From Alphaproteobacteria bacterium (GTDB taxonomy: Bacteria; Pseudomonadota; Alphaproteobacteria; Reyranellales; Reyranellaceae), in contig JAHCJT010000005.1 in assembly GCA_026126245.1 (NCBI GenBank), positions 1-39,486 of the forward strand: a stretch of DNA of 39,486 nucleotides, read 5' to 3'. Below the pieces are notes generated by a model. That model did no database searches, had not been told where the DNA came from, and saw only the letters and a program-made list of their open reading frames with translations. The position numbers and the translations under genes are program-made. Below, piece by piece: positions 2,801 through 17,435 of the stretch; the first letter of the stretch is position 1; the number at the start of each line of letters is the position of its first letter.

Positions 2801-3700
2801 ATGCGCGTCGTCATCGTCGGCATGGGCGTGCAGGGCGCCAAGCGACTCGCGGTGGCGGGCAGCGACGTGGTCGCCACGGTCGATCCGGTGCGCCCGGCCG
2901 ACTACCGCGATCTCGCCGATGTTTCGGGGCAGGCCTATGACGCGGCGCTGCTGTGCATCCCCGACGACCCCAAGCTCGCCCTGATGACGGATCTGGTGCA
3001 GCGCGGCAAGCACGTGCTGGTGGAGAAGCCGGTGCTGGGCGACGACACGGCGATCCGGCGCGTGATCGACGCGGCGGCGGCAACCGGCGCGGTCTGCTAC
3101 ACCGCCTACAACCACCGCTTCGAGCCGCATTTCGTGCGCATGAAGGCGCTGCTCGACAGCGGCGCGCTGGGCCGCATCTACACGGTGCGCCTGTTCTACG
3201 GCAACGGCACGGCGCGCCTGGTGCGCGAGTCGGCGTGGCGCGACAGCGGCAGCGGCGTGCTGGCCGATCTCGGCTCGCACGTGCTCGACACCATCCATTT
3301 TTGGCTGGGCGCTCCTGACGCACCGTTCCGGCTGACGATGAGCAACCGGTTCGAGAACCGCAGCCCCGACCACGTCGTGCTGACAAGTGCCGGCACCGTC
3401 GCCATGCAGCTCGAGATGACGATGCTCAGCTGGCGCAACCACTTCACCTGCGACATCCTTGCCGAGCACGGCAGCGCCCACATCGAGAGCCTGTGCAAAT
3501 GGGGGCCTTCGACCTTCCGTCATCGGCGACGCGTGTTGCCGGCCGGCAGGCCGCCCGAGGAGACCGAGACGCTGGTGCAGGACGATCCGACCTGGGCCGC
3601 CGAGTACGACCACTTCAAGCATTTGTGCAAGACCGGCGGGCCGGGCAACCTGGCGAATGATCTGTGGATCAACGCGACCTTGAGGACACTGGAGGCCTGA
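2801..3700 (+). CDS. Gfo/Idh/MocA-family oxidoreductase
   Basis: A 299-residue NAD(P)-dependent oxidoreductase. A Rossmann GxGxxG motif lies at residues 7-12, the family EKP motif at 75-77 within HVLVEKP, followed by YNHRF near 105 and DLGSHVLD around 157, the conserved Asp/His-containing helix of the family. At about 300 residues it is on the short side for Gfo/Idh/MocA enzymes (usually 330-390). Family members oxidise or reduce free or nucleotide-linked sugars, often producing keto-sugars. The gene begins 7 bp after the kinase/nucleotidyltransferase stop with a GAGG ribosome-binding sequence, so it belongs to the same operon. The substrate is probably the sugar made by that operon, which is inference from context. 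Confidence 0.88.
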   Translation: MRVVIVGMGVQGAKRLAVAGSDVVATVDPVRPADYRDLADVSGQAYDAALLCIPDDPKLALMTDLVQRGKHVLVEKPVLGDDTAIRRVIDAAAATGAVCYTAYNHRFEPHFVRMKALLDSGALGRIYTVRLFYGNGTARLVRESAWRDSGSGVLADLGSHVLDTIHFWLGAPDAPFRLTMSNRFENRSPDHVVLTSAGTVAMQLEMTMLSWRNHFTCDILAEHGSAHIESLCKWGPSTFRHRRRVLPAGRPPEETETLVQDDPTWAAEYDHFKHLCKTGGPGNLANDLWINATLRTLEA

Positions 3701-4402
3701 TTGCGCGACCAGACGCCCAAGACCAAAGAGGCCCAGTACGACCTCCTGTTCAAGGTCAAGAAGAAGCACGGCGTCGCGCGCTTCGGCCTGATGGCCAACG
3801 AGTCCTGGAGCCAGGATCCCAAGCGCACCCTGTTCATGCTGGCGCGCTACAAGTTCGTCGCAAAGCTGCTGGCCGGCCGTCAGAACGTGCTGGAGGTCGG
3901 CTGCGCCGACGCCTTCGGCACCCGCCTCGTCCAGCAATCCGTGGCCAAGATGACGGCGGTCGATTTCGACCCGGTCTTCATTGCCGACGTCGAGGAGCGA
4001 GCCGATCCGCACTGGCCGATGACCGCCTTCGTGCACGACATGCTCGACGGTCCCGTGCCGGGCGGGTTCGATGCCGCCTACGCACTGGACGTGCTGGAGC
4101 ACATCAGGCCCGACGACGAAGCGACGTTCCTCAAAAACCTCTGCGTGTCCCTGACGCCGACCGGCATCGCCATCCTGGGCATGCCATCGCTCGAGTCGCA
4201 GGCCCATGCCTCGCCGCAGAGCAAGGCCGGCCACGTCAACTGCAAGACCGGCGATGAGTTCAAGCGGGTGATGGAGCAGTACTTCCACACTGTCTTCGTC
4301 TTTTCGATGAACGACGAGGTCGTGCACACCGGCTACTACCCGATGGCGCACTACCTGCTCGCCGTCTGCTCGCACCTCAAGGCGGGCGCCGGCGCTCCAT
4401 AA
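3701..4402 (+). CDS. class I SAM-dependent methyltransferase
   Basis: A 233-residue Rossmann-fold methyltransferase. The SAM-binding motif I (LEVGCADAFGT) is at residues 64-74, an acidic motif II (AVDFD) is at 86-90, and a post-motif 'AYALDVLEHI' stretch follows near 130. The start is taken as TTG at 3701, which abuts the preceding TGA with no spacer; the next in-frame ATG (Met31) would leave the motifs intact but drop a charged N-terminal helix, so the start is uncertain. Last gene of the rightward sugar operon, suggesting methylation of a sugar or glycan, for example an O-methyl cap. Its 3' end overlaps the convergent gene on the other strand by 26 bp. Confidence 0.85.
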   Translation: MRDQTPKTKEAQYDLLFKVKKKHGVARFGLMANESWSQDPKRTLFMLARYKFVAKLLAGRQNVLEVGCADAFGTRLVQQSVAKMTAVDFDPVFIADVEERADPHWPMTAFVHDMLDGPVPGGFDAAYALDVLEHIRPDDEATFLKNLCVSLTPTGIAILGMPSLESQAHASPQSKAGHVNCKTGDEFKRVMEQYFHTVFVFSMNDEVVHTGYYPMAHYLLAVCSHLKAGAGAP

Positions 4403-5456
4403 CATTCCGGGCAAGCCTGCCGACCGTGCGGCGCAGCGTCCGGCGCACGCCGCTCATCCACGTGTCGGCACCGGGTGGCGTCTGGATGGCCGAGGCCAGC
4501 CAGGCGGTCGCCGCCTCCACCCGTCGCCATTCGTCGTCGAGATCGCCGGTATGCAGCTTGACGGCCTTCGAGAAGAAATGGCGATGCAGCGCATTGGCCA
4601 TTCCGCCATGAGCTGTGTGCCGCAAGGTCTCGATGTCGAACGGCTCGTGGCGGGACTCCGAATACCAGGCGTTCGCCGGCGTGAGCGAACACAGGAAAAT
4701 GTCGTCGGAATCGGTCTCGACGTGGATCTCCGCCCAGTTGCCCAGAGCGCGGCCGAGCAGGGCGCCGTCAATCGACTGTTCCTTCAGCGCCTCGACGCTC
4801 TCGATCCGCGAAAAGTCGATCATCAGCGGATGAAGGTGGAGGCACCGCATGAGGATACCCTTGCCGCCGAGGTCCCAGCAGCACACCGCCGGAAACGTCG
4901 AGAAATCCCGCGAAGTCACGAAGTAGCGGCGCATCTGCGGATGCAAGTGCTCCAGCGCCAGCGCGACCATCTCCCGGCAGCCGATCGGCGCGTCGATGCG
5001 ATGTGCCAGCGCCGGCAGCGCGGCTTCCTGAAGCAGTCGAATACCGGTCGACATGACCGCGATCTTTCCCTGATCGGCGTGCTCGGCGAGCCTACGCAGG
5101 CTGCCGTCGGCGAACAGCATGTCGGGCGCGGCGATGATGGCATGCGCGCCCTCGCGCTTACACGCGAGAGCGCCAAGGTAGTGGCCCTCGCTCATCGCCA
5201 GGTAGACATTCGACGCGCTGTCCGGATCGAAGTGGACGAACTCGATCGGCACAGTTTCGGCCAGACGGCGCACGGAGATAGCCTGGCGGATGGTGTCTTC
5301 CTCGGCGGCGCGGGTGAAGAACACCACCTTGCAGTCGCCGCGCGCCGCCAGCGCCGGCAGGTTGCCGTCGTAGAGCAACGTGGGGATGGCCAACCGGACC
5401 ATGACGTCGATGTAGCGATCCCCCCAGACCGCCATGAAGACGTGGAACCTGGCCAT
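4377..5456 (-). CDS. unrecognised transferase-like protein in glycan operon
   Basis: A 359-residue protein that I cannot place in a named family. No signal peptide or membrane span is visible. The N-terminus (FHVFMAVWGDRYIDVM, then alternating hydrophobic strands such as CKVVFF and HAIIAAPDMLFADGS near 125-140) resembles the nucleotide-sugar binding half of GT-A glycosyltransferases, with acidic clusters (APDM, DSDD near 268) that could be metal ligands. The C-terminal 40 residues are Arg-rich and basic. It is the last of seven tightly packed leftward genes, 9 bp after the E1 beta gene, so it probably acts on the product of that operon. Glycosyltransferase is a guess from fold pattern and context only. 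Its 3' end overlaps the convergent methyltransferase gene by 26 bp. Confidence 0.78.
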   Translation of the reverse strand: MARFHVFMAVWGDRYIDVMVRLAIPTLLYDGNLPALAARGDCKVVFFTRAAEEDTIRQAISVRRLAETVPIEFVHFDPDSASNVYLAMSEGHYLGALACKREGAHAIIAAPDMLFADGSLRRLAEHADQGKIAVMSTGIRLLQEAALPALAHRIDAPIGCREMVALALEHLHPQMRRYFVTSRDFSTFPAVCCWDLGGKGILMRCLHLHPLMIDFSRIESVEALKEQSIDGALLGRALGNWAEIHVETDSDDIFLCSLTPANAWYSESRHEPFDIETLRHTAHGGMANALHRHFFSKAVKLHTGDLDDEWRRVEAATAWLASAIQTPPGADTWMSGVRRTLRRTVGRLARNVMERRRPP

Positions 5457-5465
5457 CGGCGTCCG

Positions 5466-6524
5466 TCAGTACGGCCCCTTGAACGAGGGATCCGGCACAT
5501 CCTTCCAGCGGCGCGGATCGCTGTCGTCGGGCGGCAGTTCGCGGTCCGAGCCCAACGTCGTGAGCGCCGCCACGGCGATGTCGCGCGCCAGCGGATAGTA
5601 GAGATCGGCCAACGCCGGCGTGGTCGGCGTCGGAATGTGCGGCAGACCGACCCGTCGCGGTGGTGCCCTGAGCGCGCCGAAGGCATGCTGCGCCACCAGC
5701 GCCAGCGCCTCGGCGCCGACCCCGTAGCTCTCCTGGCCGGTATCGGAAACGACGAAGTGGCCCGTGCGCCCGACTGACTCGGTCAGGGTCGCCACATCGA
5801 GCGGCGCCACGGCACGCAAGTCGATCACCTCCGCCTCGATGCCGATCCGGCTCAGCATGTCGGCCGCCTTCAGGCTCTCCAGGCACATGTAGGACGTTGC
5901 GGCCAGCGTCACGTCGCGGCCGCGACGCACGATCGTCGCCTGATCGAGCGGCACCTCGTAGGGCGCCTCGGGCACCGGGCCGGCGATGTTGTAGAGCCAG
6001 CGATGCTCCATGACGATCACCGGCGCATCGTCGCGCACGGCCGCGATCAGCATGCCCTTGGCGTCGTGTGGCGTGGTCGGCATGACGACCTTCAGGCCGG
6101 GCACGTGGGCAAACCAGGCCTGCAGCGACTGCGAGTGTTGCGGCCCCTGCCCCCAGCCGCGGCCGATGATCATGCGCACGGTCAGGGGTGCCTTCAGCTT
6201 GCCGCCGTACATGTAGTGCCACTTGGCCGCCTGGTTCACCAGCGGCTCCATGGATAGGACGGCGAAATCGACACGCATGTGCACGACGATCGGACGCCTG
6301 CCCATCAGGGCCGTACCCAGCGCAACGCCGGTCATCGCGTTCTCCGACGACGGCGTGTCGAAGACACGGTGCTTGCCGAATTCTTCCTGCAGGCCCTTGG
6401 TCGTGCCGAAGACGCCGGTCGGCCCGGGAACGCCCAGGCCAATCACCAAGGTGCTCGGGTCGGTGGCGAGGAGCTGGGCCTGCGCCTCGCGTAGCGCTTC
6501 GAAATAGCGAAGCTGACGCGTCAT
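5466..6524 (-). CDS. thiamine-diphosphate-dependent E1 beta subunit (transketolase-like)
   Basis: A 352-residue beta subunit of the 2-oxoacid dehydrogenase E1 / transketolase-like type. The family's thiamine-contacting Glu is E61 in DTPSSENAMTG (55-65), preceded by TGVFG and the 'GLQEEFG' helix; the conserved GPQHSQS His segment and the 'PGLKVVMPTTP' strand of the pyrimidine domain follow, and the C-terminal domain has the DLRAVAPLD motif. The start is ATG at 6524, which overlaps the alpha-subunit stop in an ATGA arrangement; longer versions of the frame are shadows of the alpha gene. With the alpha subunit it should form an alpha2beta2 enzyme that decarboxylates a 2-oxoacid or transfers a short-chain unit. 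No E2 (lipoyl) or E3 gene is nearby, so a carboligase or decarboxylase role in sugar modification is plausible. Confidence 0.9.
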   Translation of the reverse strand: MTRQLRYFEALREAQAQLLATDPSTLVIGLGVPGPTGVFGTTKGLQEEFGKHRVFDTPSSENAMTGVALGTALMGRRPIVVHMRVDFAVLSMEPLVNQAAKWHYMYGGKLKAPLTVRMIIGRGWGQGPQHSQSLQAWFAHVPGLKVVMPTTPHDAKGMLIAAVRDDAPVIVMEHRWLYNIAGPVPEAPYEVPLDQATIVRRGRDVTLAATSYMCLESLKAADMLSRIGIEAEVIDLRAVAPLDVATLTESVGRTGHFVVSDTGQESYGVGAEALALVAQHAFGALRAPPRRVGLPHIPTPTTPALADLYYPLARDIAVAALTTLGSDRELPPDDSDPRRWKDVPDPSFKGPY

Positions 6525-7501
6525 CGGCGATCCGCCGGGTCGGGATAGACGAAGCGCGCCAGCGCCTCGGGCGCCGGAAACGGACTGGACTTGGCGAACG
6601 CAACCGCCGCGTCGAGCTCGCCGGCGATCGTCTTTGCCATCGCCGTCTCGGCAGGCGCGCTCAGCATGCCGGTTGCCGTCAGCCGCTGGCGATAGGTGTT
6701 CACGGGATCGCGCGCCTGCCACGCCGCGAATTCCTCGGCGCTGCGATAGTTCAGCTCGAGATCGCCGTTCGGACCGCAATGCTCGCGCCAGCGATAGGTC
6801 GCGAACTCGATCAGGGTCGGACCGTCGCCCTTGCGCGCCCGCGCCACCGCCTCGGCGGCGAGGTCGTAGACGACATCGACGTCGTTGCCATCTCCGTAGA
6901 CGCCTTGCAGCCCATGCGCCGGCGCAAGCGCATGGATGGGTCGGTCCGGCTGGCGGACGTCGAGCGCGGAATGAACGGAGTAGAGGTTGTTCTCGCACAC
7001 GAACACGACGGGCAGCTTGTGCGTGCCGGCGAAGTTCAGTGCCTCGTGGAACGCGCCCTCTTCCGTGGCACCGTCGCCGAAATAGACGACGACCACGCGG
7101 TCCAGGCCATCGAGCTGCGCCGCCCAGGCCGCGCCCACGCCGACCGAGATCGTGCTGGCCAGAATCGGTGCCGAGCCCATGAAACCGCACTCGAGGTCGA
7201 TGAGGTGCTGGCTGCCACCCTTGCCCCCGGCACAGCCGGTTGCGCGGCCGTAGAGCTCAGCCAGCATGGCTCTCAGGTCGCCGCCCTTGGCCAGGTAGTG
7301 GCCGTGGCTCCGGTGACCGCTGAAGACGAGATCGTCGCGGCGCAGATGGGCCGACACGCCGACCGGCGGCGCTTCCTGGCCGATGCACAGGTGGGTCGGG
7401 CAGCGCATTTGCTGCTCGGCATAGAGATCGCCGATGCGCTCCTCCACCAGCCGGATGCGCAGCATCTGACGGTAGAGATCGAGGCGGCTGTTGTCCGGCA
7501 T
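6521..7501 (-). CDS. thiamine-diphosphate-dependent E1 alpha subunit
   Basis: A 326-residue alpha subunit of the pyruvate/acetoin dehydrogenase E1 family. The family GKGGSxH motif is at 93-99 (GKGGSQH), and the thiamine-diphosphate/Mg motif runs from GDG (142-144) to NN (171-172) with the expected spacing. The loop that in PDH E1 alpha reads YR(Y/F)xGHSxSD here reads YRWREHCGPNGD around H241, so the regulatory/phosphorylation loop is diverged while the His is kept. Start ATG 7501 overlaps the previous gene's stop by 1 bp (TGATG); the frame could extend upstream but only through the neighbouring gene. Paired with the beta gene by a 4-bp overlap. The substrate is unknown; the sugar-operon setting suggests that it does not serve central metabolism. 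Confidence 0.9.
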   Translation of the reverse strand: MPDNSRLDLYRQMLRIRLVEERIGDLYAEQQMRCPTHLCIGQEAPPVGVSAHLRRDDLVFSGHRSHGHYLAKGGDLRAMLAELYGRATGCAGGKGGSQHLIDLECGFMGSAPILASTISVGVGAAWAAQLDGLDRVVVVYFGDGATEEGAFHEALNFAGTHKLPVVFVCENNLYSVHSALDVRQPDRPIHALAPAHGLQGVYGDGNDVDVVYDLAAEAVARARKGDGPTLIEFATYRWREHCGPNGDLELNYRSAEEFAAWQARDPVNTYRQRLTATGMLSAPAETAMAKTIAGELDAAVAFAKSSPFPAPEALARFVYPDPADRR

Positions 7502-8493
7502 CAGGCCCGCATCACGTAGTCGGTCGGCCAGTCCTTGAGCTGGTCGAAATACCTGCGGCCCCAGGCGACCATCTCGTCCAGGCCCTCGTCCCAACCGATC
7601 CGCGGCTGCCAACCGATATCGTTCCGGATGCGCGAACTGTCCAGCCAGTAGCGGCTGTCTTGGCCGAGGCGGTCCTCGGTGACCTCGCACAACTGCTCGA
7701 ACGGCACGCCGAGCGCCCTGGCGGTGCGCTCGACAACCTCGCGGATCGAGGTCGGATCCTTGGGCCCGGCATTGTAGATCGTGCCCAGGGGCGCTTTCTC
7801 GGCGATGAGCTGGATCGCGCGGCCCAGATCGCGGGCATGGATGTAGGACTTCTCGGCCTTGCCGCCGCCGTGCAGTGGCAGCTTCTCGCCCTTGAGGCCC
7901 ATGACGACCGCCTTCGGGATCACCCGGTGCAGCAGCTGGCCCGGACAGTAGGCGTTCGACGGCCGGATGATGTTCATCGGGAATTTCAGGAAGCGATGGA
8001 CCGACACGAGATACATGTCGAACGCCACTTTCGACGCGGCATATGGCGAGGACGGCTTGATCGGCGTGTCCTCGTGCGACGGCGCATCCACGGAACCGTA
8101 CATCTCCGACGTGCCGATATGGATGAAGCGCTCAAGGTAGTCGCGCTTCATAAGTTCCTCGCAAAGGCGCGCCAGCGCCATGCTGTTGGTCTCGAAAAAG
8201 CGCCAGGAGTTCTTCCAGCTCACCGCGCCTTCGCCCTGCGCGGCAAAGTTGACGATGATCTCCGGCTTCTCCGTGTCGAGCAGCTCGAGCAGCAGGTCGA
8301 GTTCATACGTGACATGGCGGGCGTGATAGTCGAAGCCTTTGCGCCGCTCGATGCCCAGCGAGAAGGCACCGGGACGCAGCGGATTGCGGCCGACGCCGAT
8401 CACCTTCGTGGGATCGGCATTGTCGAGCAGCCAGAAGGCGGTGTGGATGCCGAACGAGCCGCCCCCGCCCAGGATGACCCACTTCTTGCTCAA
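7501..8493 (-). CDS. NAD-dependent epimerase/dehydratase, GDP-mannose 4,6-dehydratase-like SDR
   Basis: A 330-residue extended SDR. The nucleotide-binding stretch is LGGGGSFG (8-15), the catalytic triad region reads TSEMYG (128-133) and YAASK gives Y151/K155. The TSEMYG form, with Ser-Glu after the Thr, resembles the GDP-mannose and dTDP-glucose 4,6-dehydratase group, so a 4-keto-6-deoxy product is likely but unproven. The start is chosen at TTG 8493 because AGGAGG sits 8 bp upstream on this strand and the Rossmann strand then begins at residue 5. An upstream TTG at 8523 would add 10 residues with no ribosome-binding site. It lies in the middle of the leftward operon, coupled to the E1 alpha gene by a 1-bp overlap. 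Confidence 0.88.
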   Translation of the reverse strand: MSKKWVILGGGGSFGIHTAFWLLDNADPTKVIGVGRNPLRPGAFSLGIERRKGFDYHARHVTYELDLLLELLDTEKPEIIVNFAAQGEGAVSWKNSWRFFETNSMALARLCEELMKRDYLERFIHIGTSEMYGSVDAPSHEDTPIKPSSPYAASKVAFDMYLVSVHRFLKFPMNIIRPSNAYCPGQLLHRVIPKAVVMGLKGEKLPLHGGGKAEKSYIHARDLGRAIQLIAEKAPLGTIYNAGPKDPTSIREVVERTARALGVPFEQLCEVTEDRLGQDSRYWLDSSRIRNDIGWQPRIGWDEGLDEMVAWGRRYFDQLKDWPTDYVMRA

Positions 8494-8526
8494 GCCTGCA
8501 TCCTCCTGCTCCGTCTCGACCAATTT

Positions 8527-9186
8527 CTAGGCCGCGATGATCGTCCATGTCCAATCGCCGCGAAATCCCGCCTCGGCAAAGACCGCCTCCCAGCCCTCGG
8601 GATAGTCGTGGAATCGTGCCGTCAGCACCCAATCCACAAAGACAGCCCGTTCCTGCGGCGTGCGGTAGCTGTCCACGCGGATATAGCTGCGCCCGCGTCC
8701 GACGCGCTCGAATTCGCGCAACGCGCGCACGACCCCGGCGCGCTCAAGGTTGTGGATGACATCCAGCCCAATCACGAGATCGAAGCTGGCATCGGCGAAG
8801 GGCAACGCATCACACGAGCCGCACACCAGCCGGCCGCGGGCCTCCGGTTCGGCATGGCTCAGTGCGTAGTGCGAGATATCGAGGCCCCAGACATCGAGGC
8901 CCCGGCAGGCGCCCAGCAGGTCCTTGACGAGAAAGCCCTTGGCACAGCCGACGTCGAGCACCCGCTGCCCGGGGGTCAGCCCGTAGTGGGCCACGATATC
9001 GTGGGCCACCGGCACCCACCGGCCGTCGTAGCGATAGCCGCCATAGCCGTAGTCGCGCGAACCATCGAAGTAGTCGAAGCTGAACTGCATCGCGCGCGCG
9101 ATCAGCTCGGGCGACTTCGCAGTCGCCCGTGCGGCGATGTTGCGGCGGCTCTTCGGCAGGCGGCCCAGCAGGTCGAGGTATGCCAT
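8527..9186 (-). CDS. class I SAM-dependent methyltransferase
   Basis: A 219-residue methyltransferase. Motif I (VLDVGCAKGF) lies near residues 76-85, the acidic second motif in VWGLDIS near 99-105, and a DALPFADASFDLVIG stretch follows, as in small-molecule class I enzymes (Methyltransf_11/25 group). No signal peptide is present. An odd glycine/tyrosine-rich segment (YGYGGYRYDG, about 46-55) precedes the Rossmann core and may form part of the substrate pocket. The gene starts 3 bp after the stop of the upstream SDR gene and lies just before the dehydratase-like SDR gene, so a sugar or sugar-nucleotide is the likely acceptor. It is not closely similar to the other methyltransferase in this locus, so two distinct methylations are possible. 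Confidence 0.87.
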   Translation of the reverse strand: MAYLDLLGRLPKSRRNIAARATAKSPELIARAMQFSFDYFDGSRDYGYGGYRYDGRWVPVAHDIVAHYGLTPGQRVLDVGCAKGFLVKDLLGACRGLDVWGLDISHYALSHAEPEARGRLVCGSCDALPFADASFDLVIGLDVIHNLERAGVVRALREFERVGRGRSYIRVDSYRTPQERAVFVDWVLTARFHDYPEGWEAVFAEAGFRGDWTWTIIAA

Positions 9187-9189
9187 GGC

Positions 9190-10083
9190 CTAGCGCTCGG
9201 CGATCTCACGGTGGACGCGCGCGATGCCATCCGGCAGCTGCGTCATCTTCAGGTCCGGAAATGCCAAGCCGATTGCCGAGATGTCGAACGGGCGATAGCC
9301 ACCGTGCGGCATCGGCCCGCTCCGCTTGGTACCGATGACCTTCACCTTGTTGCCGTACAGCTCCGCAATCTGCTCGGCGATCGCGCGGAACGAATGCACC
9401 GCGCCCGACGCGACGTTCAGGGCTCCGACGGAACGTTGCTCGACGATGCGGGCGATGATCTCCGCGACGTCGTCGATGAAGACGTGATCGCGCCGCTCTT
9501 CGCCCTCGCCGAACAGGATGATGTCCTTGCTCGCCGCGGCAAGGCGCCGGTATTGATTGGGCCCGTAGCCGCCATGCGGATCTGCTGCGCCATAGATCAT
9601 GGTCGGCCGCACAAAGGTGAGGCCGGCCGTCGGCACCACGTCGCGCAGCATCAGTTCGCGGGTCAGCTGCATGATGCCATAGAGGTTGTCCGGACCTTTG
9701 AGCGAGCTCTCTGTCAGCGGCACGCTGCTGTCGGCATAGACCGCGTCCGAGCTGACGTAGACCACGTGGTCGACCGGTCGCGCGCGCAGGGCATTGGTGA
9801 TCCGCGCCATCATCGCCAGATTGTGCACGACCATGTCCGGAGTCCGGCACGGGACCTTCACTGCCGAGATGATGACAGTGTCCTTGGGCCGGAGCTGGCC
9901 GACGAGTCGGTCGGTCGCGGTATCGGCGCCAAGGTCGATCTGCGCGCGGGCGAGGCCCACGACGTCGCCACCCCTCGCGGCAATGCGGTTCGCCACAGCA
10001 TGGCCGACAAAGCCGGCAGCGCCAACGACCACGGTGCGCGGCGGCAACAGACCCGGCGAACGCGTATGCGTAAGAATGGTCAC
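9190..10083 (-). CDS. NAD-dependent epimerase-like SDR with Tyr-x-x-x-Gln in place of Tyr-x-x-x-Lys
   Basis: A 297-residue SDR. The NAD motif GAAGFVG is at residues 21-27, the strand ending YVSSD at 109-113, and the expected catalytic Tyr is Y135 in NLYGIMQLTRE. The position four residues on, normally the catalytic Lys, is Gln139; the codon on the minus strand is CAG, so this is not a reading error. Downstream motifs (VRPTMIYG, then RRDHVFIDDVAE) are standard for the family, so the fold and cofactor site look intact. Loss of the Lys suggests altered chemistry, a non-catalytic role, or a different proton relay. The stop overlaps nothing downstream (3-bp gap), and the start overlaps the dehydrogenase-like gene upstream by 4 bp. 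Confidence 0.88.
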   Translation of the reverse strand: MTILTHTRSPGLLPPRTVVVGAAGFVGHAVANRIAARGGDVVGLARAQIDLGADTATDRLVGQLRPKDTVIISAVKVPCRTPDMVVHNLAMMARITNALRARPVDHVVYVSSDAVYADSSVPLTESSLKGPDNLYGIMQLTRELMLRDVVPTAGLTFVRPTMIYGAADPHGGYGPNQYRRLAAASKDIILFGEGEERRDHVFIDDVAEIIARIVEQRSVGALNVASGAVHSFRAIAEQIAELYGNKVKVIGTKRSGPMPHGGYRPFDISAIGLAFPDLKMTQLPDGIARVHREIAER

Positions 10084-11351
10084 ACCTGTGTGGGTAGCAG
10101 GGGTGGTCGGCCGATCGAATAGAGAGCAAGGCCGGCGGCCGCAGCCTTCTGCGTATCGAGCAGGCGATAGGGATCGATCACCACGCGGCCGCGCATCCGG
10201 GCCGCGAGCGCCGCCGGATCAATCTGCCGATAGGCCGGCCACGGGGTCATCAGCAGGACGGCATCCGCCGCATCGGCCACGCCCTCGGCCATGGCGACAC
10301 CGACCGTCTGCGGCACGACGGAGGCCGGCACGACCGGGTCGTGAACCTTGAGCTCGATGCCGGGCAGTCGACCGATCAGGGCGACGGACGCGCTGTTCTT
10401 TGTCGAGTGCGTGTCCTGCTTGTAGGCCAGCCCCATGATGCCCAGCCGCGGGCGTTCGACCACGTCGAGGACGGTCCGCTTCAGCGTGCGGTACGCCCAG
10501 TCCCGCATATACCGGCTGTTCTCGACATAGGCTTCGATGACGCCGGTGGCGCTGCCTTCCCGGGCTCCGAGTCCGATCACGGTGGCGAGGTCGCGCTCCA
10601 GATTGCCACCGGCGATGCCCAGACCCGGCGTCAGATAGGCGGACGGCCCGATGCGGGCGTCAAGTCGCAGCGCCGGCGCGATCTCCGACCAGTCGGCCGA
10701 GATCCGTTCGCAGAGTTCGGCCAGCGTGTTTGTCGTCGAGACGCTGGCGACCAGGAAGCAGTTGATGGCGACCTTGGCGAGTTCGGCACTCTCGTATCGC
10801 ATCGGCAAGATGGGGCAGCCGAAACTCTCCAGAAAGGCGCGGTAGGTCGTCGGCAGGGGCAGCGATGGATCCGCGCAGCCGACGATAAAGCGCTCCGGCG
10901 CGGTGGCACGCTCCAGCGCACGCCCGAAGATCAGCGTCTCGACCTGATAGTAGAGTCGCGCCGGATCGAAGCGGATGCTGCGGGTAAAGCCCGGCGGGAC
11001 CTGACTCAGCATCACCAGTGAGGTCTGTGGCCGGAGCGTCGGCATGACCCGCGCCAACACCTGGTGGATGGGCGTCAGATCAGCGCGTCCCGTGTCGTCC
11101 GTCGGCACATCCGGCGCGATATAGACGACATCGCAACCGGCAAGCGCATCCACGTCCGACGTGAAGGTCAGCCTTGAGCGATGCTCGGCGAAGGCCCCGT
11201 CAAGGCCAGGTTCCACCACCGGCAGGACGCCTCGCCCGATGCGCTGCACCAACGCGGCGTCATCCGACCAGCCCACGATCGCGTGCCCCTGGATCGCTGC
11301 GCCAACCGCAGAGCAAATGCCGAGATGGGTGAGGCCGATGAATCCGATCAT
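10080..11351 (-). CDS. UDP-glucose/GDP-mannose dehydrogenase-family protein lacking the catalytic Cys
   Basis: A 423-residue protein with the three-domain layout of nucleotide-sugar dehydrogenases: an N-terminal NAD strand (MIGFIGLTHLG, 1-11), a central helix with the conserved SAELAK...N pattern (188-208), and a C-terminal substrate domain starting at GLAYKQDT. The active-site motif, usually PGxGFGGxCxxKD, reads PGLGIAGGNLERD at 242-254, so the nucleophilic Cys is Asn250 and the Lys is Arg253. Without the thiol the normal two-step oxidation to a uronic acid cannot proceed by the standard mechanism; it might stop at the aldehyde, do other redox chemistry, or be structural. The start is ATG 11351, where homology begins; a longer frame to 11420 runs through the divergent promoter region. 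First gene of the leftward operon. Confidence 0.88.
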   Translation of the reverse strand: MIGFIGLTHLGICSAVGAAIQGHAIVGWSDDAALVQRIGRGVLPVVEPGLDGAFAEHRSRLTFTSDVDALAGCDVVYIAPDVPTDDTGRADLTPIHQVLARVMPTLRPQTSLVMLSQVPPGFTRSIRFDPARLYYQVETLIFGRALERATAPERFIVGCADPSLPLPTTYRAFLESFGCPILPMRYESAELAKVAINCFLVASVSTTNTLAELCERISADWSEIAPALRLDARIGPSAYLTPGLGIAGGNLERDLATVIGLGAREGSATGVIEAYVENSRYMRDWAYRTLKRTVLDVVERPRLGIMGLAYKQDTHSTKNSASVALIGRLPGIELKVHDPVVPASVVPQTVGVAMAEGVADAADAVLLMTPWPAYRQIDPAALAARMRGRVVIDPYRLLDTQKAAAAGLALYSIGRPPLLPTQV

Positions 11352-11464: not shown

Positions 11465-12607
11465 GTGCTTTCGCGGATCGTCTACCCTGTACTGGCACGT
11501 TTGCTCTGGCTACTTCGCGTCCGCTTTCTCTGCCTCACCAGCCCCAATCGGATCGGCCACCTGGCAATCGAACCCGACTGTCACGCCAAGGATCGCCTGC
11601 TGGCGGGCAGATGGGAACTGACCGTCCTGCTGCTGCGGCCTGCCGACGTGGCAAATCCCCGCTTGCTCGAGCATTGGCGCAAGTATTTCATCGTTGTCTC
11701 CAGGCCGACTCCTTTCCGTCTGCTGACTCCGTTCCTGTCGTTTGATTTTCTGAGGCTGTATCCCCTTCGCTGTGTCGTCGCCATCGACGATACCGCAACG
11801 GCATACGATACCTACCGGCGCTGGGGCGAGCGGCCGCCGCTGTTGGCCTTGACTGCGACCGAACGCGCTGCCGGGCGCGCGACCCTGGAGAAGATGGGCG
11901 TGCCGGCCGGCGCTTGGTTCGTCTGCATCCACTCGCGCGAGGGCGGCTACTCGCCCGCGGACGAGCATCTGCACTCCTACCGGAACAGCTCCATCGACGA
12001 CTATATCCCTGCGATGCACGCGATCGTCGCCGCCGGCGGCTGGTGCATCCGCATGGGTGACTCGACGATGCGTCCGTTGCGGCCAGTCCCCGGCGTCATC
12101 GACTACGCGTTGTCGCCGTACAAGGATGCGGCGATGGACGTCTACCTGTGTGCGGAATGCCGCTTCGTGCTCGGCAACTCTTCAGGCCTCTATATGCTGG
12201 CCGCGGTTTTCGGAAAGCCGAGCGCCCTGGCCAACCAGGCGCCGCTGTCAGCGGTCTATGGCGTGGGCATCCGCGACATCGCGATCCCAAAGCGCCTGCG
12301 GCGCGATGGCCAGCTGCTGCCACTGGGGCCTCTCTTGCGCTCACCCATAGCCAACTACCGTTTCACCGAGCTCTACGAGAAAGACCGCCTCGAACCGGTC
12401 AACAACACGCCGGCGGAAATCCTTGCCATGACCGAGGAGATGCTCGAGAGAGTTTCGGGCAGCCCGACCTACACTGCCGACGACGAGGCACGACAGGAAA
12501 AGTTTCGCGCCCTCTTTGCCAGGGGGCACTACAGCTTCGGCGCCGCCTCGCGCATCGGCCGGGACTTTCTGCGGAATTTGGCAGAGTCCGATTTCAGACC
12601 AGCTTGA
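11465..12607 (+). CDS. TIGR04372-type glycosyltransferase
   Basis: A 380-residue protein whose pattern matches my recollection of the TIGR04372 family of putative glycosyltransferases: HSREGGY at 156-162, YRNSSIDDY at 172-180, GGWCIRMGD at 191-199, and a later NSSG (about 239) in the nucleotide-binding half. The N-terminal 25 residues are hydrophobic with Arg interspersed, possibly a membrane-associating helix. The start is GTG at 11465 with AGGAG 6 bp upstream; an ATG two bases earlier is out of frame. It is transcribed divergently from the leftward operon and probably adds a sugar to a surface glycan. Donor and acceptor are unknown. Its last 14 bp overlap the convergent transaldolase gene. 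Confidence 0.85.
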   Translation: MLSRIVYPVLARLLWLLRVRFLCLTSPNRIGHLAIEPDCHAKDRLLAGRWELTVLLLRPADVANPRLLEHWRKYFIVVSRPTPFRLLTPFLSFDFLRLYPLRCVVAIDDTATAYDTYRRWGERPPLLALTATERAAGRATLEKMGVPAGAWFVCIHSREGGYSPADEHLHSYRNSSIDDYIPAMHAIVAAGGWCIRMGDSTMRPLRPVPGVIDYALSPYKDAAMDVYLCAECRFVLGNSSGLYMLAAVFGKPSALANQAPLSAVYGVGIRDIAIPKRLRRDGQLLPLGPLLRSPIANYRFTELYEKDRLEPVNNTPAEILAMTEEMLERVSGSPTYTADDEARQEKFRALFARGHYSFGAASRIGRDFLRNLAESDFRPA

Positions 12608-13307
12608 AGCCGGCCGCTTTGGCGTCGTTGTGGAACATCTTGACGGTCTCCAGCGAGAACTCGTCGAGATCCTTCCCAATGGTCGGCAGCTTGGCGAGGA
12701 TATCGGGGGTGATGGTGATGATGTCGCAACCGCTCTCGTCCGCCTGCAGGACGTTGAGCACCTCGCGCGGACTGGCCCAGAGGAGCTCCACTTTCGGTCG
12801 GCCGGCCAGCGCTGCCTTCGCCTGACGCATCACGGGGATCGGATCCACGCCCGTATCGGCAATCCGGCCGGCGAAGACCGACACGATCGCGCGGCTGTTC
12901 GGGCTGACGGCGTCGGCAACGGCCATGACCTGTGCGAGCGTCATGACCGCCGTGATGTTGAGCGCAAAGCCTTCTGCCGACAGTTTGCGGATCAGGGGGA
13001 CGGTCGATTCCGCCCTGGTGTTGCTGATCGGGATCTTGACGAATGTGTCACCGCCCCAGCTGGCGATGGCCCGCGCTTCAGCTTCCATGGCGTCAAAGTC
13101 GTCGGAGAAGACCTCGAAGGAAATCGGCAGGTCGGGGATCGCCGCGATGGCCGCCTTGGCGAACGCCGCATAGTCGGTGACGCCCGAACTGCGCATGAGC
13201 GTCGGATTGGTCGTGAAGCCCTTGACCGTGCCGGCCCGGCGCGCGGCCTTCATCGCCTCGATGTCGGCGCCATCCATGAACAGCTTGATCTTGAGCGGTT
13301 TGATCAT
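12594..13307 (-). CDS. transaldolase (short TalC/FSA-type)
   Basis: A 237-residue class I aldolase barrel. TTNPT is at 32-36 and the Schiff-base Lys is K91 in FVKIPISN. In fructose-6-phosphate aldolase two active-site positions are Gln59 and Tyr131, while transaldolases have Glu and Phe there. This protein has E65 (ISFEV) and F145 (VSVFAGR), so transaldolase activity is favoured: transfer of dihydroxyacetone from fructose 6-phosphate to erythrose 4-phosphate, giving sedoheptulose 7-phosphate. The start is ATG 13307, overlapping the isomerase stop in ATGA; a GTG 15 bp further out is less likely. Coupling to a GmhA-like isomerase suggests that it feeds heptose synthesis rather than only the pentose phosphate pathway. 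Confidence 0.9.
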   Translation of the reverse strand: MIKPLKIKLFMDGADIEAMKAARRAGTVKGFTTNPTLMRSSGVTDYAAFAKAAIAAIPDLPISFEVFSDDFDAMEAEARAIASWGGDTFVKIPISNTRAESTVPLIRKLSAEGFALNITAVMTLAQVMAVADAVSPNSRAIVSVFAGRIADTGVDPIPVMRQAKAALAGRPKVELLWASPREVLNVLQADESGCDIITITPDILAKLPTIGKDLDEFSLETVKMFHNDAKAAGFKLV

Positions 13308-13909
13308 TCGATCGATTCCCACTTCATCTCATTGGCCTTCAAGGCGGGGTGAGTCACGATCAGGTGCCAGACGACGGCATGAAACGCTTCGGTATGCGGC
13401 GTAATGGTGGCCGGATTGACGACCGGGACGACGACGCACGCGTCGGCGACCTGCGCCGTGTAGCCGCCGTCACGCCCCACGACGCCAATGATCTTTGCGC
13501 CCACGTCCCTCGCCAGCTTGAGTGCATGGACGAGATTCGGGCTGACGTTCTTTTCCAGGTTGCCGCCGCCAACCGAGAACACAAAGACCGCATCCTTGGA
13601 GTTCAGCCGGCTGCCCTTCAGCCAATCCGCGAAGGCGACGTCCCATCCGTCGTCGTTGATTCGGGCGGTGAGCTCCGAGACGTTGTCAGTTGGCGTATAG
13701 GCTTCGACGTTGGCGATCTTGCGAAAGTCATTGACCGCGTGCGAGCAATTGGCCGCGCTGCCGCCGACCCCCAGAAAGAACAGGCGACCGCGGTCAGCAC
13801 GCACGCCGGCAATCACCCGCACGACATCATCGATCACGGCGCCGTCCAATCGCTCGATGATTTCGACAGCTTCGCGCAAATAGAGGGTCGTGTAGCTGGT
13901 CGCGTTCAC
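13304..13909 (-). CDS. SIS-domain sugar-phosphate isomerase, GmhA-like
   Basis: A 201-residue SIS-domain protein, the usual size of sedoheptulose-7-phosphate isomerase (GmhA, about 190-200). The phosphate-binding motif GVGGSAANCSH is at 47-57, followed by DNVSELTARINDDGWD (75-90), which parallels the GmhA segment ending in an Asn-Asp-x-Gly motif. A second SIS strand (VFSVGGGN, then GAKIIGVVGRDGG) is also present. The start is GTG 13909 with AAGGTGG just upstream; the frame continues to 14008 but the extra residues have no family match. It overlaps the transaldolase gene by 4 bp. Likely reaction: sedoheptulose 7-phosphate to an aldoheptose 7-phosphate, although other ketose-aldose phosphate pairs are possible. 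Confidence 0.88.
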   Translation of the reverse strand: MNATSYTTLYLREAVEIIERLDGAVIDDVVRVIAGVRADRGRLFFLGVGGSAANCSHAVNDFRKIANVEAYTPTDNVSELTARINDDGWDVAFADWLKGSRLNSKDAVFVFSVGGGNLEKNVSPNLVHALKLARDVGAKIIGVVGRDGGYTAQVADACVVVPVVNPATITPHTEAFHAVVWHLIVTHPALKANEMKWESIE

Positions 13910-14696
13910 GCATCCACCTTCGTCGGAAAACAGGATACAACCCAAACCTGCAGAAATGCAGCTGTGGGCCTGAATGTTGAAGGGAAGTCGCAGCAGATTC
14001 AATCGCAAGGCGTCCGCTTGCCGCTGCGGTTCCAGCCGCGCCCCGGAGAAGCGATCGACAAGGACAGCATTTCCGCACCTGAGCGATCTTGGAACCGTGG
14101 CATTTCCTGTTCACCGTGGCGATGCCCGCCGCGCCATCACACTGGGTGAGGATGGCACCGGCACAAGGTAGGGCGCGCGTCGGCACCGGACGTGCTGCGG
14201 TCGCTGGCAGCACTGCACAGTGGCCCGCGCCGGAAGCCAGGCTGTCGTGCCCCGACCGGGCTTACCGGCATTGCGGTGGCCAGCGCATGCGGCGGCGACG
14301 CCTGCGTTGGGTTGTTGTTACTCCGGTGCAGCGAGGCGGATCGGCCGGACGGGCATGAGTGCGATCGACTTGAGGCTCAGGCTTCAGGATCGGCACCTAG
14401 GACACGTCGGACGAAAGAGCCGGCACGCGAGTCGTCCCTGCGCCGGGCAAAAGGCGGTCCGCCGATCGGACCCGAACACTGCCGCGGTCGCGCCGTCATC
14501 TTGGCGTCAGAAATCGACTGGCCCGGTCGCGGGGACATGAGTGCCCCGACGGCTGCGCGATCGGAATCAACATCTGCCAAACGCGCAGTCCTCCCCCGCG
14601 CAAGTACGCACCGCCGAAGCTTCGCGGCGATGCTAGCTTTTCAACCGTCGACGTGTCGGACGGACACTGACGGAATCAGAACATGGAGGAGACTCA
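13910..14696. other. 787-bp intergenic region, no gene supported
   Basis: This stretch separates the divergent starts at 13909 and 14697. Several frames are open across it, as expected at this GC content, but none has a recognisable domain, a good ribosome-binding site or a leader peptide. It holds a perfect 6-bp inverted repeat, GGTCCG-CCGAT-CGGACC, at 14456-14472, which could be an operator or hairpin. The TRAP receptor gene at its right end has a clear GGAGGAGA ribosome-binding site. I see no tRNA. Confidence 0.5.
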
Positions 14697-15800
14697 ATGC
14701 GCCTTTCACGTTTGCGGTTGACGCGCCGCAAGCTTGCTCCTGCCGCGGCAGTCGCGGCTGCTGCGGTGGCAGCGCCGGCCATCGCACAACAATCAGGAGA
14801 GTCGGTGCGATGGCGGCTGGTCTCCAGCTTTCCCAAGAGTCTCGACACGCTGTTCGGTGCGGCACAGACCATTTCGCGAGTCGTCGGCGAATTGACCGAC
14901 GGCAAGTTCGTGGTGCAGCCCTTCGCCGCCGGCGAGATTGTGCCGGCGCTGCAAGTCCTAGACGCCGTATCCAACGCCACGGTCGAATGCGGCCACAGCT
15001 ACACCGGCTACTACATCGGCAAGAACCCCAGCTTCATTTTCGACGGTTCGCTGCCGTTCGGCCTGACGCCGCGCCAGCACAGCGCCTGGCTGTTTCACGG
15101 CGGCGGACGCCAGCTCATGGAAGAAGTTTATGACGCCTTCAACGTCGTGGCGATTCCGGCCGGCAATACCGGCGGCCAGATGTTCGGGTGGTTTCGCAAG
15201 GAGCTGAAGACGCCCGCCGACTTCCAGGGCCTCAAGATGCGCACCGCCGGCTTCGGCGGCAAGGTGATGTCCAAGTTGGGCGTTGTGCCGCAGCAGATCC
15301 CCGGTGGCGACATCTATCCGGCGCTCGAGCGCGGCACGATCGACGCCTGTGAATGGGTCGGCCCCTATGACGACGAGAAGCTCGGCTTCAACAAGGTGGC
15401 CAAATATTACTACACGCCCGGCGTGATGGAGATGGAGGCGACGAACCACCTTTTCATCCACAAGGCCGCGTGGAATGCGCTGTCGCCACGCTTCCAAGCG
15501 GCGCTGCGCTACGCCTGCAACTACGCGATGACCGAGATGCTGGCAACCTATGATGCCAAGAACGCCCAGGCCATCGCCCGGCTGGTCGCCGCCGGCACGC
15601 AGCTTTCCGTGCTGCCGACGGAGGTGGTGCGCGCCCTGCGCGTCGCCCTCGAAGCGGTCCTCGACGAGGAGGCGGCGGCCAGCCCGCAGTTCAAGAAGAT
15701 CCTGGAAAACTGGCGGCAATTCCGTGCCGATCAGCATCGCTGGTTCCTGATCGCCGATACCCGCGCCGAGCTAGCGGCCTACAACTCGGCGCCGCGCTAG
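14697..15800 (+). CDS. TRAP transporter solute-binding protein, DctP/TakP type
   Basis: A 367-residue periplasmic receptor. An N-terminal leader with a twin Arg (LTRRKL), an Ala-rich core and APAIAQ cleavage region ends near residue 31. The mature protein carries the DctP pattern: VSSFPKS strand, TDGKFVVQPFAAGEIVPALQ, the Arg-bearing LKMRTAGFGG that clamps the substrate carboxylate, GGDIYPALERGTIDACEW and TNHLFIHK. The IPGGDIYPALERGTIDA form resembles the TakP/mannitol-chloroaromatic subgroup, which binds 2-oxoacids and related carboxylates; this assignment is from family memory. No DctQ or DctM membrane genes lie in the window, so it is an orphan receptor or partners with a distant permease. 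Start ATG follows GGAGGAGA by 5 bp. Confidence 0.92.
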   Translation: MRLSRLRLTRRKLAPAAAVAAAAVAAPAIAQQSGESVRWRLVSSFPKSLDTLFGAAQTISRVVGELTDGKFVVQPFAAGEIVPALQVLDAVSNATVECGHSYTGYYIGKNPSFIFDGSLPFGLTPRQHSAWLFHGGGRQLMEEVYDAFNVVAIPAGNTGGQMFGWFRKELKTPADFQGLKMRTAGFGGKVMSKLGVVPQQIPGGDIYPALERGTIDACEWVGPYDDEKLGFNKVAKYYYTPGVMEMEATNHLFIHKAAWNALSPRFQAALRYACNYAMTEMLATYDAKNAQAIARLVAAGTQLSVLPTEVVRALRVALEAVLDEEAAASPQFKKILENWRQFRADQHRWFLIADTRAELAAYNSAPR

Positions 15801-16346: not shown

Positions 16347-17324
16347 CTACTCGGGCTTCAGCAAGCCGGTCTTGGTCAGTTCGACAACGTTCGCTTCCTC
16401 GGCCTTCAGGTAGGCGGCGAAGGCCTCCGAGGTCGACGGCCTGACCTTGGCGCCAAGCTCGCCCAGACGCTGCCGTACGGTGGCGTCGTTCAGCGCCGCA
16501 ACGACCGCGGCATTGAGCGTCGTGACGATCGGTTTGGGCGTCTCCACCCGGGCGAACAGGCCGGCAGTGGTGCCGCCGTCGAATCCGGTCCCGCCCAGAT
16601 CCATCAGTGTCGGCACGTCAGGCAGCTCAGGCAGCCGCTCGAGGCTCAGCGCGACCAGTGGCCGTAGCTTGCCCGACTTGATGTGCGGCAGCGACGTGGT
16701 CAACTGATCGACATAGCAGTCGATCTGGCCGCCCATCAGGTCGACCAGACCCGGCCCGGAGCCCTTGTAGGGGATGATGTTGAAGCTGAGCTTTTCATTG
16801 AGCTGGATCCGCAGGATGCCGATGTGGTTCGTCGTGCCGTTGCCGGCGTGCCCGACGCTCACCGTGCCAGGCTTGGCCCTTGCCTCGGCCGCCACGGCAC
16901 GCCAGTCGGCAAAGCGGCTGCCGGCCCCGGTCACGACTACCATCGGCACGGTGGTCAGGAAGCTCAGCGGCACGAAAGCCGGAATCAGCGACGCCTTCCG
17001 CGCCATCAGCGGCCCGATATACAGCACGCTGAAACTGGCCATGACGACGGTGTAGCCGTCGGCCGGTGCGCTGGCAGCGACCTCGACGCCGACCAGGCCG
17101 CCGGCGCCGGGGCGATTGTCGATCACCACGCTCTGCCCGAGGTGACGCGACATCGGCTCGCCGACCAATCTTGCCGTCACGTCGTAGTTGCCGCCGGCGG
17201 CAAACGGCACGATCCAGCGCACTGGCTTGGACGGAAACGCCTGGGCTGTCGCGGGCACGCTGCGAGCCGACATCGCCAACGCCGCCAGGCCTGCACCAAG
17301 AAATCCACGCCGCTCGAAATCCAT
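16347..17324 (-). CDS. Bug-family tripartite tricarboxylate transporter receptor
   Basis: A 325-residue periplasmic receptor of the Bug/TctC family. The leader contains a twin-arginine motif (ERRGFLGAG, near residues 4-12) and ends at ATAQ near 28. The mature start FPSKPVRWIVPFAAGG and the segments VIDNRPGAGG, APADGYT and VPYKGSGPG-like IIPYKGSGPG are family signatures that line the carboxylate pocket. Start chosen at ATG 17324, 8 bp after GGAAGGG; an ATG two codons earlier is too close to that site. No TctA/TctB membrane genes are in the window, which is common for this expanded family. The ligand is unknown, probably a carboxylate or similar small molecule. Confidence 0.92.
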   Translation of the reverse strand: MDFERRGFLGAGLAALAMSARSVPATAQAFPSKPVRWIVPFAAGGNYDVTARLVGEPMSRHLGQSVVIDNRPGAGGLVGVEVAASAPADGYTVVMASFSVLYIGPLMARKASLIPAFVPLSFLTTVPMVVVTGAGSRFADWRAVAAEARAKPGTVSVGHAGNGTTNHIGILRIQLNEKLSFNIIPYKGSGPGLVDLMGGQIDCYVDQLTTSLPHIKSGKLRPLVALSLERLPELPDVPTLMDLGGTGFDGGTTAGLFARVETPKPIVTTLNAAVVAALNDATVRQRLGELGAKVRPSTSEAFAAYLKAEEANVVELTKTGLLKPE

Positions 17325-17435
17325 GATCATTTCCCTTCCTGCCTGAACCCCGGCCATTGCGCCCGTCCAGGCACAGGGTGCCCCGGGAGTCGGTGCGCCA
17401 GACCATCGGCACGACAAATCACAACACTCGTTTTC

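Follow-up and report, generated by a model that had tools for sequence, protein, structure and literature searches.

A conserved nucleotide-sugar dehydrogenase subfamily without the catalytic cysteine and its gene cluster for a putative long-chain sugar

The dehydrogenase gene and its neighbours

The window, a 39,486-nt stretch at the start of a contig from a member of the alphaproteobacterial family Reyranellaceae (host genome 88% complete, 496 contigs), encodes on its minus strand a 423-residue nucleotide-sugar dehydrogenase that lacks the catalytic cysteine (10080–11351). The gene was assigned from its Pfam domains (PF03721/PF00984/PF03720), an AlphaFold2 model, and an alignment of 108 members. 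All three UDPG_MGDP_dh domains scored above the Pfam gathering score, and the AlphaFold2 model (pLDDT 93.9) gave UDP-glucose dehydrogenases (UGDHs) as its top PDB matches in Foldseek, with TM values of 0.84–0.90. The three domains and the UGDH fold place the protein in the NDP-sugar dehydrogenase family at the fold level. Its score against the NCBIfam model TIGR03026 ("nucleotide sugar dehydrogenase") was 185.4, which is just below the cut-off of 189.8. The active-site motif, PGLGIAGGNLERD, was read directly at residues 242–254 (10590–10628, minus strand). The codon of Asn250, AAT at 10604–10602 of the minus strand, replaces that of the catalytic Cys, and alignment with canonical enzymes located Asn250 at the Cys260 position and Arg253 at the Lys263 position (S. 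pyogenes numbering). This agrees with the first-pass annotation, which had read both substitutions from the DNA. A separate Cys-type UGDH (L002) is also encoded by the same organism.

The genes around the dehydrogenase were identified by domain matches, and their recurrence was counted in 61 neighbourhoods with adequate flanking sequence. Following the dehydrogenase on the minus strand are SDR1, an RmlD/GDP-fucose-synthase-like member of the NAD-dependent epimerase/reductase family (9190–10083; Pfam; 56/61 neighbourhoods), a SAM methyltransferase, MT (8527–9186; Pfam; 55/61), and SDR2, a dehydratase-like SDR that is 37% identical to gdh of the bradyrhizose cluster (7501–8523; Pfam/NCBIfam; 23/61). 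These are succeeded on the same strand by two thiamine-diphosphate-dependent partners, E1 alpha (6521–7612; Pfam E1_dh; 11/61) and E1 beta (5466–6530; Pfam Transket_pyr and Transketolase_C; 15/61). The plus strand carries, from the contig start, the C-terminal tail of SDR4, which is cut by the contig start and was found by tblastn (3–131; SDR4 in 55/61; the tail is 84% identical to SDR4 of the orthologous cluster in genome G007), the GalE/4,6-dehydratase-like SDR3 (230–1243; Pfam; 55/61), an HldE-like bifunctional enzyme (1234–2793; Pfam/NCBIfam; 60/61), and a Gfo/Idh/MocA-family oxidoreductase (2801–3700; Pfam), which accompanies the dehydrogenase more constantly than any other gene (61/61). 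The HldE-like protein has an N-terminal nucleotidyltransferase and a C-terminal PfkB kinase, a domain order opposite to that of the usual HldE, and it is the sole HldE match in this incomplete genome. On the other side of the dehydrogenase, the minus strand encodes a transaldolase (12594–13322; TIGR02134, 338 bits against a cut-off of 282; 54/61) and a GmhA-like SIS-domain sugar-phosphate isomerase (13304–14008; Pfam SIS_2; 46/61). Three genes are occasional neighbours: a TIGR04372-family glycosyltransferase (11465–12607, plus strand; NCBIfam, 202 bits; 6/61), a second methyltransferase, MT2 (3701–4402, plus strand; Pfam; 5/61), and a gene adjoining E1 beta for a 359-residue protein (4377–5456, minus strand), which had no family match in Pfam or NCBIfam and weak matches in 13/61 neighbourhoods. 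Just past the cluster, substrate-binding proteins of the TRAP and tripartite-tricarboxylate types were noted by eye at 14697–15800 and 16347–17417.

The common gene order across genomes is SIS-HAD-TAL-SDR4-SDR3-HldE-Gfo-dehydrogenase-SDR1-MT. The HAD phosphatase of this order, which resembles heptose-bisphosphate phosphatase (GmhB), was present in 43/61 neighbourhoods. Unlike these clusters, the window has no HAD gene between SIS and transaldolase; a distant GmhB-like gene was found on another contig of the same genome. When the same thresholds were applied to 20 canonical UGDH controls, an uneven sample drawn mostly from the window's own family and including 18 with the PGxGxGGSCFPKD motif, cluster genes were found near none of them (0/20 neighbourhoods).

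Conservation and catalytic residues of the subfamily

Asn250 and Arg253 are invariant in all 108 aligned members, which are 38–75% identical relatives. This set was obtained by taking out duplicates and putting in Bradyrhizobium members; before that, Asn had been found in 109 of 110 loci, and Thr in the single exception. The nearest orthologue, which shares 75% identity and comes from genome G007 of the same family, carries the motif unchanged, and comparison with it gave a dN of 0.18 and a dS of 0.94. The resulting dN/dS of about 0.19 indicates that the dehydrogenase is under purifying selection. The first-pass annotation had argued from conservation against simple decay, and had named Cys retention in all close homologues as the mark of a recent inactivating change. 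The aligned homologues bear out its argument, as Asn and Arg are kept as a subfamily trait and the Cys is not retained. Recent decay, chance, and an assembly or sequencing error are ruled out by the 108/108 conservation together with the dN/dS value.

A class-wide BLAST comparison of 385 alphaproteobacterial genomes detected homologues in 28 further genomes at 36–60% identity, canonical UGDHs being approximately 30% identical in the same comparison. A scan of 84,980 species gave 254 relatives, of which the best 80 were used. Among these best 80 of 254, the carriers include Azospirillum, Bradyrhizobium, Magnetospirillum, Rhodopseudomonas, Nisaea, Thalassobaculum, and Methylocystis, as well as MAGs labelled Betaproteobacteria, Nitrospirae, and Acidobacteria. 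The conservation of Asn is not circular, because the peptide patterns of the species scan omitted the Asn motif. A tree built by quick search, to be read with caution because of long branches, joins the Asn proteins with a support of 100 and keeps the canonical Cys enzymes apart; five proteins with Thr in place of Cys (Thr-type) constitute the clade neighbouring the Asn group. Judged from these sequences, the Cys-free dehydrogenase is a widespread enzyme type and not a broken gene. Spread by plasmids was rejected, since a search of 72,556 plasmids gave no match at E 1e-60. A literature search for Cys-free UGDH homologues found nothing relevant. Four genomes of the Bradyrhizobium genus (G479, G623, G652, and G682; loci L177–L180) carry an intermediate dehydrogenase at 34% identity, which reads GGTLARD in those inspected.

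An analysis of 229 family members described 18 invariant residues and a near-invariant Tyr10 (PMC4794789), and Gly9, Tyr10, Thr83, Thr118, Pro140, Gly257, and Asn287 are all invariant or nearly so across the family (PMC4794789). Each of these is replaced in the window's protein. The first-pass remark that the rest of the fold is well kept hence applies to the fold, but not to these residues; the fold, the three domains, and the first and last Gly of the NAD-site GxGxxG are shared with the UDP-glucose, GDP-mannose, and UDP-ManNAc dehydrogenases. Compared with the family described by TIGR03026, the protein differs by Cys260→Asn, Tyr10→His, Thr118→Gln, Gly9→Thr, Thr83→Val, and Pro140→Val. The first three changes were found in 108/108 members, and the other swaps of the Asn-type are Gly9→Thr/Ser, Thr83→Val/Ile, Pro140→Val, and Gly257 to mostly Ala/Ser. 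The position of Cys260, which is invariant in the four-electron enzymes, is Thr in 5/5 proteins of the neighbouring clade, whereas all 18 canonical controls have Cys there (18/18). The Thr-type proteins share the His and Gln replacements with the Asn clade (5/5), and also its Arg. The family residues Lys204, Asn208, Glu141, Glu201, Asp264, Lys320, and Arg244 have equivalents in all 108 members, as do Asn219 and Gly258.

Lys204, Asn208, Glu141, Asp264, and Lys320 are assigned to the binding of the substrate and to its first oxidation (PMC4794789, PMC3184952), and the replaced residues serve the thioester step, thioester hydrolysis, and the active water (PMC4794789, PMC3184952), of which the latter two are tied to Tyr10 and Thr118 (PMC4794789). 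Such a pattern of kept and lost residues is that expected of a two-electron dehydrogenase. Loss of the Cys alone is no proof of this, because C276A human UGDH was reported to be able to oxidise added aldehyde (PMC3184952). For the same reason, the first-pass statement that the thioester mechanism is impossible holds for the Cys-thioester route, which is unavailable, but does not extend to aldehyde oxidation as such. The C276A report would also suit an enzyme that still transfers four electrons and reaches the acid by a Cys-independent route through the hydrated aldehyde; this is very improbable given that Tyr10, Thr118, and Cys, the residues of the second half-reaction, are replaced in every member. 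Likewise, the lost catalytic Cys could be read as the sign of a non-catalytic or regulatory pseudoenzyme. We find this scarcely credible for a protein under purifying selection in which the base Asp, the Lys, Asn, and Glu, and the diphosphate-binding Lys are invariant, and whose host has a separate Cys-type UGDH. The nearest annotation models carry either the name "nucleotide sugar dehydrogenase" or "UDP-glucose 6-dehydrogenase" and thereby predict uronic acids for many bacteria in which this gene probably makes none.

Comparison with lincomycin octose genes and a proposed pathway

Taken together, transaldolase, SIS isomerase, phosphatase, kinase, and nucleotidyltransferase follow the scheme by which nucleotide-activated C7 or C8 sugars are made. 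For the octose of lincomycin, the enzyme types of lmbM, L, Z, P, O, N, K, and R have been listed, among which LmbL is a "C8 dehydrogenase" clustered with a transaldolase, an SIS-type isomerase, a phosphatase, a kinase, a nucleotidyltransferase, an epimerase, and an oxidoreductase (PMC4351081). GDP-octose is converted into GDP-lincosamide by LmbM, LmbL, CcbZ, and CcbS (PMC12945683). The alphaproteobacterial clusters of the Thr-type dehydrogenase (L081 and L183–L185, of which L183 and L184 are from the Bradyrhizobium genus) contain an SDR, the dehydrogenase, Gfo, a GHMP kinase, a nucleotidyltransferase, SIS, HAD, and transaldolase, located at L183:8331–16015, L184:3945–11590, and L081:4679–11792. 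They match lmbR/N/K/P/O/M/L/Z type for type, by enzyme type and not by alignment, and in L183 and L184 the transaldolase, SIS, phosphatase, kinase, and nucleotidyltransferase accompanying the dehydrogenase are all separate genes. LmbL, whose counterpart in celesticetin biosynthesis is CcbL, is presumably UGDH-like and LmbZ Gfo-like. Most Asn-type clusters hold the same set as transaldolase, SIS, HAD, and a fused kinase/nucleotidyltransferase, that of the window being without HAD; an LmbZ-type Gfo (61/61) and LmbM-type SDRs (55–56/61) are also present, as matched at the family level only. The Asn-type clusters differ from lincomycin in the activation enzymes, which are HldE-like instead of a GHMP kinase/NTP-transferase pair. 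Furthermore, an aminotransferase, LmbS/CcbS, takes part in making the 6-amino sugar of lincomycin, whereas no aminotransferase was seen among the genes shared here. A literature search for an octose in Azospirillum/Magnetospirillum glycans found nothing relevant.

We propose, at a probability of roughly 60%, that this conserved subfamily is an active, two-electron NAD-dependent alcohol dehydrogenase, which would convert the C6 hydroxyl of an NDP-sugar into a 6-ketone. The sugar is most likely longer than six carbons and probably an octose. The transaldolase would make octulose 8-phosphate. After isomerisation to the aldose by the SIS enzyme, NDP-octose would be reached through the HAD phosphatase and the HldE-like kinase/nucleotidyltransferase. 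The Cys-free dehydrogenase would oxidise the secondary C6 hydroxyl of this sugar using the kept Lys193, Asn197, Glu138, and Asp254 (numbering of the window's protein). As a ketone is not oxidisable further, the nucleophilic Cys, the hydrolysis-promoting Tyr, and the water-holding Thr would be without a role; their joint change would be explained by the ketone endpoint, which makes the second half of the UGDH reaction unnecessary. The Gfo/Idh/MocA enzyme probably acts on the same keto intermediate by epimerisation, deoxygenation, or reduction, and SDR1 and the methyltransferase would complete the sugar, which is probably a bacterial surface sugar. We favour C8 over C7 because the transaldolase is a dedicated one and sedoheptulose 7-phosphate is already a housekeeping metabolite, though a C7 sugar derived from the latter could be the product of these genes instead.

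The first-pass annotation had suggested either a nucleotide-sugar 6-aldehyde or other chemistry. The first oxidation is still feasible without Cys, so that the C6 hydroxyl of an NDP-hexose might be converted into a free 6-aldehyde and handed on, for example, to E1 alpha/beta or an aldolase. However, the cluster encodes enzymes for a longer sugar: if it builds an NDP-sugar longer than six carbons, C6 would bear a secondary hydroxyl, so that the product would be a 6-ketone, not a free hexose 6-aldehyde. In addition, the presence of E1 alpha/beta in only 11–15/61 neighbourhoods rules it out as the general partner that takes the aldehyde. The aldehyde thus appears quite improbable, and the genomic context favours the "other chemistry".

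Such chemistry might also be an internal redox reaction, in which C6 is oxidised and the hydride is returned within the site with NAD unconsumed, the released product being a 6,8-dehydrated (8-deoxy-6-keto) sugar or a C6 epimer in place of a simple ketone. It would agree with the retention of the first-step residues and the loss of those for hydrolysis, and His9 and Gln117, which are invariant and new, could be its acid/base residues. The LmbM/LmbL/CcbZ/CcbS conversion is also said, in a 2020 lincosamide study, to include 6-epimerisation and 6,8-dehydration. We know of no UGDH-fold enzyme that performs internal redox, however, and the separate Gfo and SDR enzymes of the cluster could do the return step, for which we hold this mechanism rather unlikely. 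If the preferred reading, a two-electron 6-ketone-forming dehydrogenase, is true, ketone-forming members could be told from their sequence by the simple pattern of lost Cys/Tyr/Thr and kept Lys/Asn/Asp. The cluster would then indicate that Azospirillum, Bradyrhizobium, Magnetospirillum, Nisaea, Methylocystis, and other bacteria make a long-chain sugar yet to be characterised.

Relation to the bradyrhizose cluster

Bradyrhizose is a C10 sugar for which a cluster of 11 genes including gdh was described in photosynthetic Bradyrhizobium, and the individual gene roles in its pathway were unknown as of that 2016 paper (PMC4743980). The two gdh primers printed for this cluster gave exact matches that located it; from a methyltransferase to an HldE-like gene, it holds eleven genes by our count. 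It contains distant homologues of the window's HldE-like gene (with the same swapped domain order), SDR4 (43%), SIS (29%), SDR2 (gdh, 37%), and MT (42%), and also a split thiamine enzyme as in the window's E1 alpha/beta. It is distinguished by the lack of UGDH, Gfo, and transaldolase, with a zinc alcohol dehydrogenase instead; no UGDH homologue was found in the 20-kb bradyrhizose region. Of 243 sampled Bradyrhizobium-genus genomes, 8 had the gdh primer site and 11 had an Asn- or Thr-type dehydrogenase, and none had both. The gene content and the separate genomes rule out that the window's cluster is the bradyrhizose cluster, and a distant relation remains; the two pathways are related but different. 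Since several bradyrhizose genes have counterparts in the window's cluster, the latter is a genetic handle on the bradyrhizose pathway.

A two-carbon branch is derived from pyruvate by AviB1/AviB2 in avilamycin and Pau11/Pau12 in paulomycin (PMC4753412). These two-protein C2-adding complexes are a possible model for E1 alpha/beta, likened by function and not by sequence, although only some of the Asn-type clusters encode E1 alpha/beta. By this analogy, E1 alpha/beta is possibly a two-carbon adder, and in the window's version of the pathway SDR2 and E1 alpha/beta may together add a two-carbon branch. As a tentative extension, which may or may not hold as a whole, we suggest that an unrecognised and widespread proteobacterial pathway supplies NDP-octose for surface glycans, with a branched or C10 form made in some species by the thiamine enzyme. 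In this pathway, a UGDH-fold enzyme with Cys→Asn, Tyr→His, and Thr→Gln would be the C6 ketone-former, and the pathway as a whole might share ancestry with that of bradyrhizose. The bradyrhizose gdh cluster itself, at L181:3897–13995 and also at L182, comprises an HldE-like gene of swapped domain order, an NTP transferase, an SDR, SIS, gdh, a split transketolase, a zinc ADH, a kinase, and a methyltransferase. This set is a candidate parts list for bradyrhizose, paralleling the cluster of the window.
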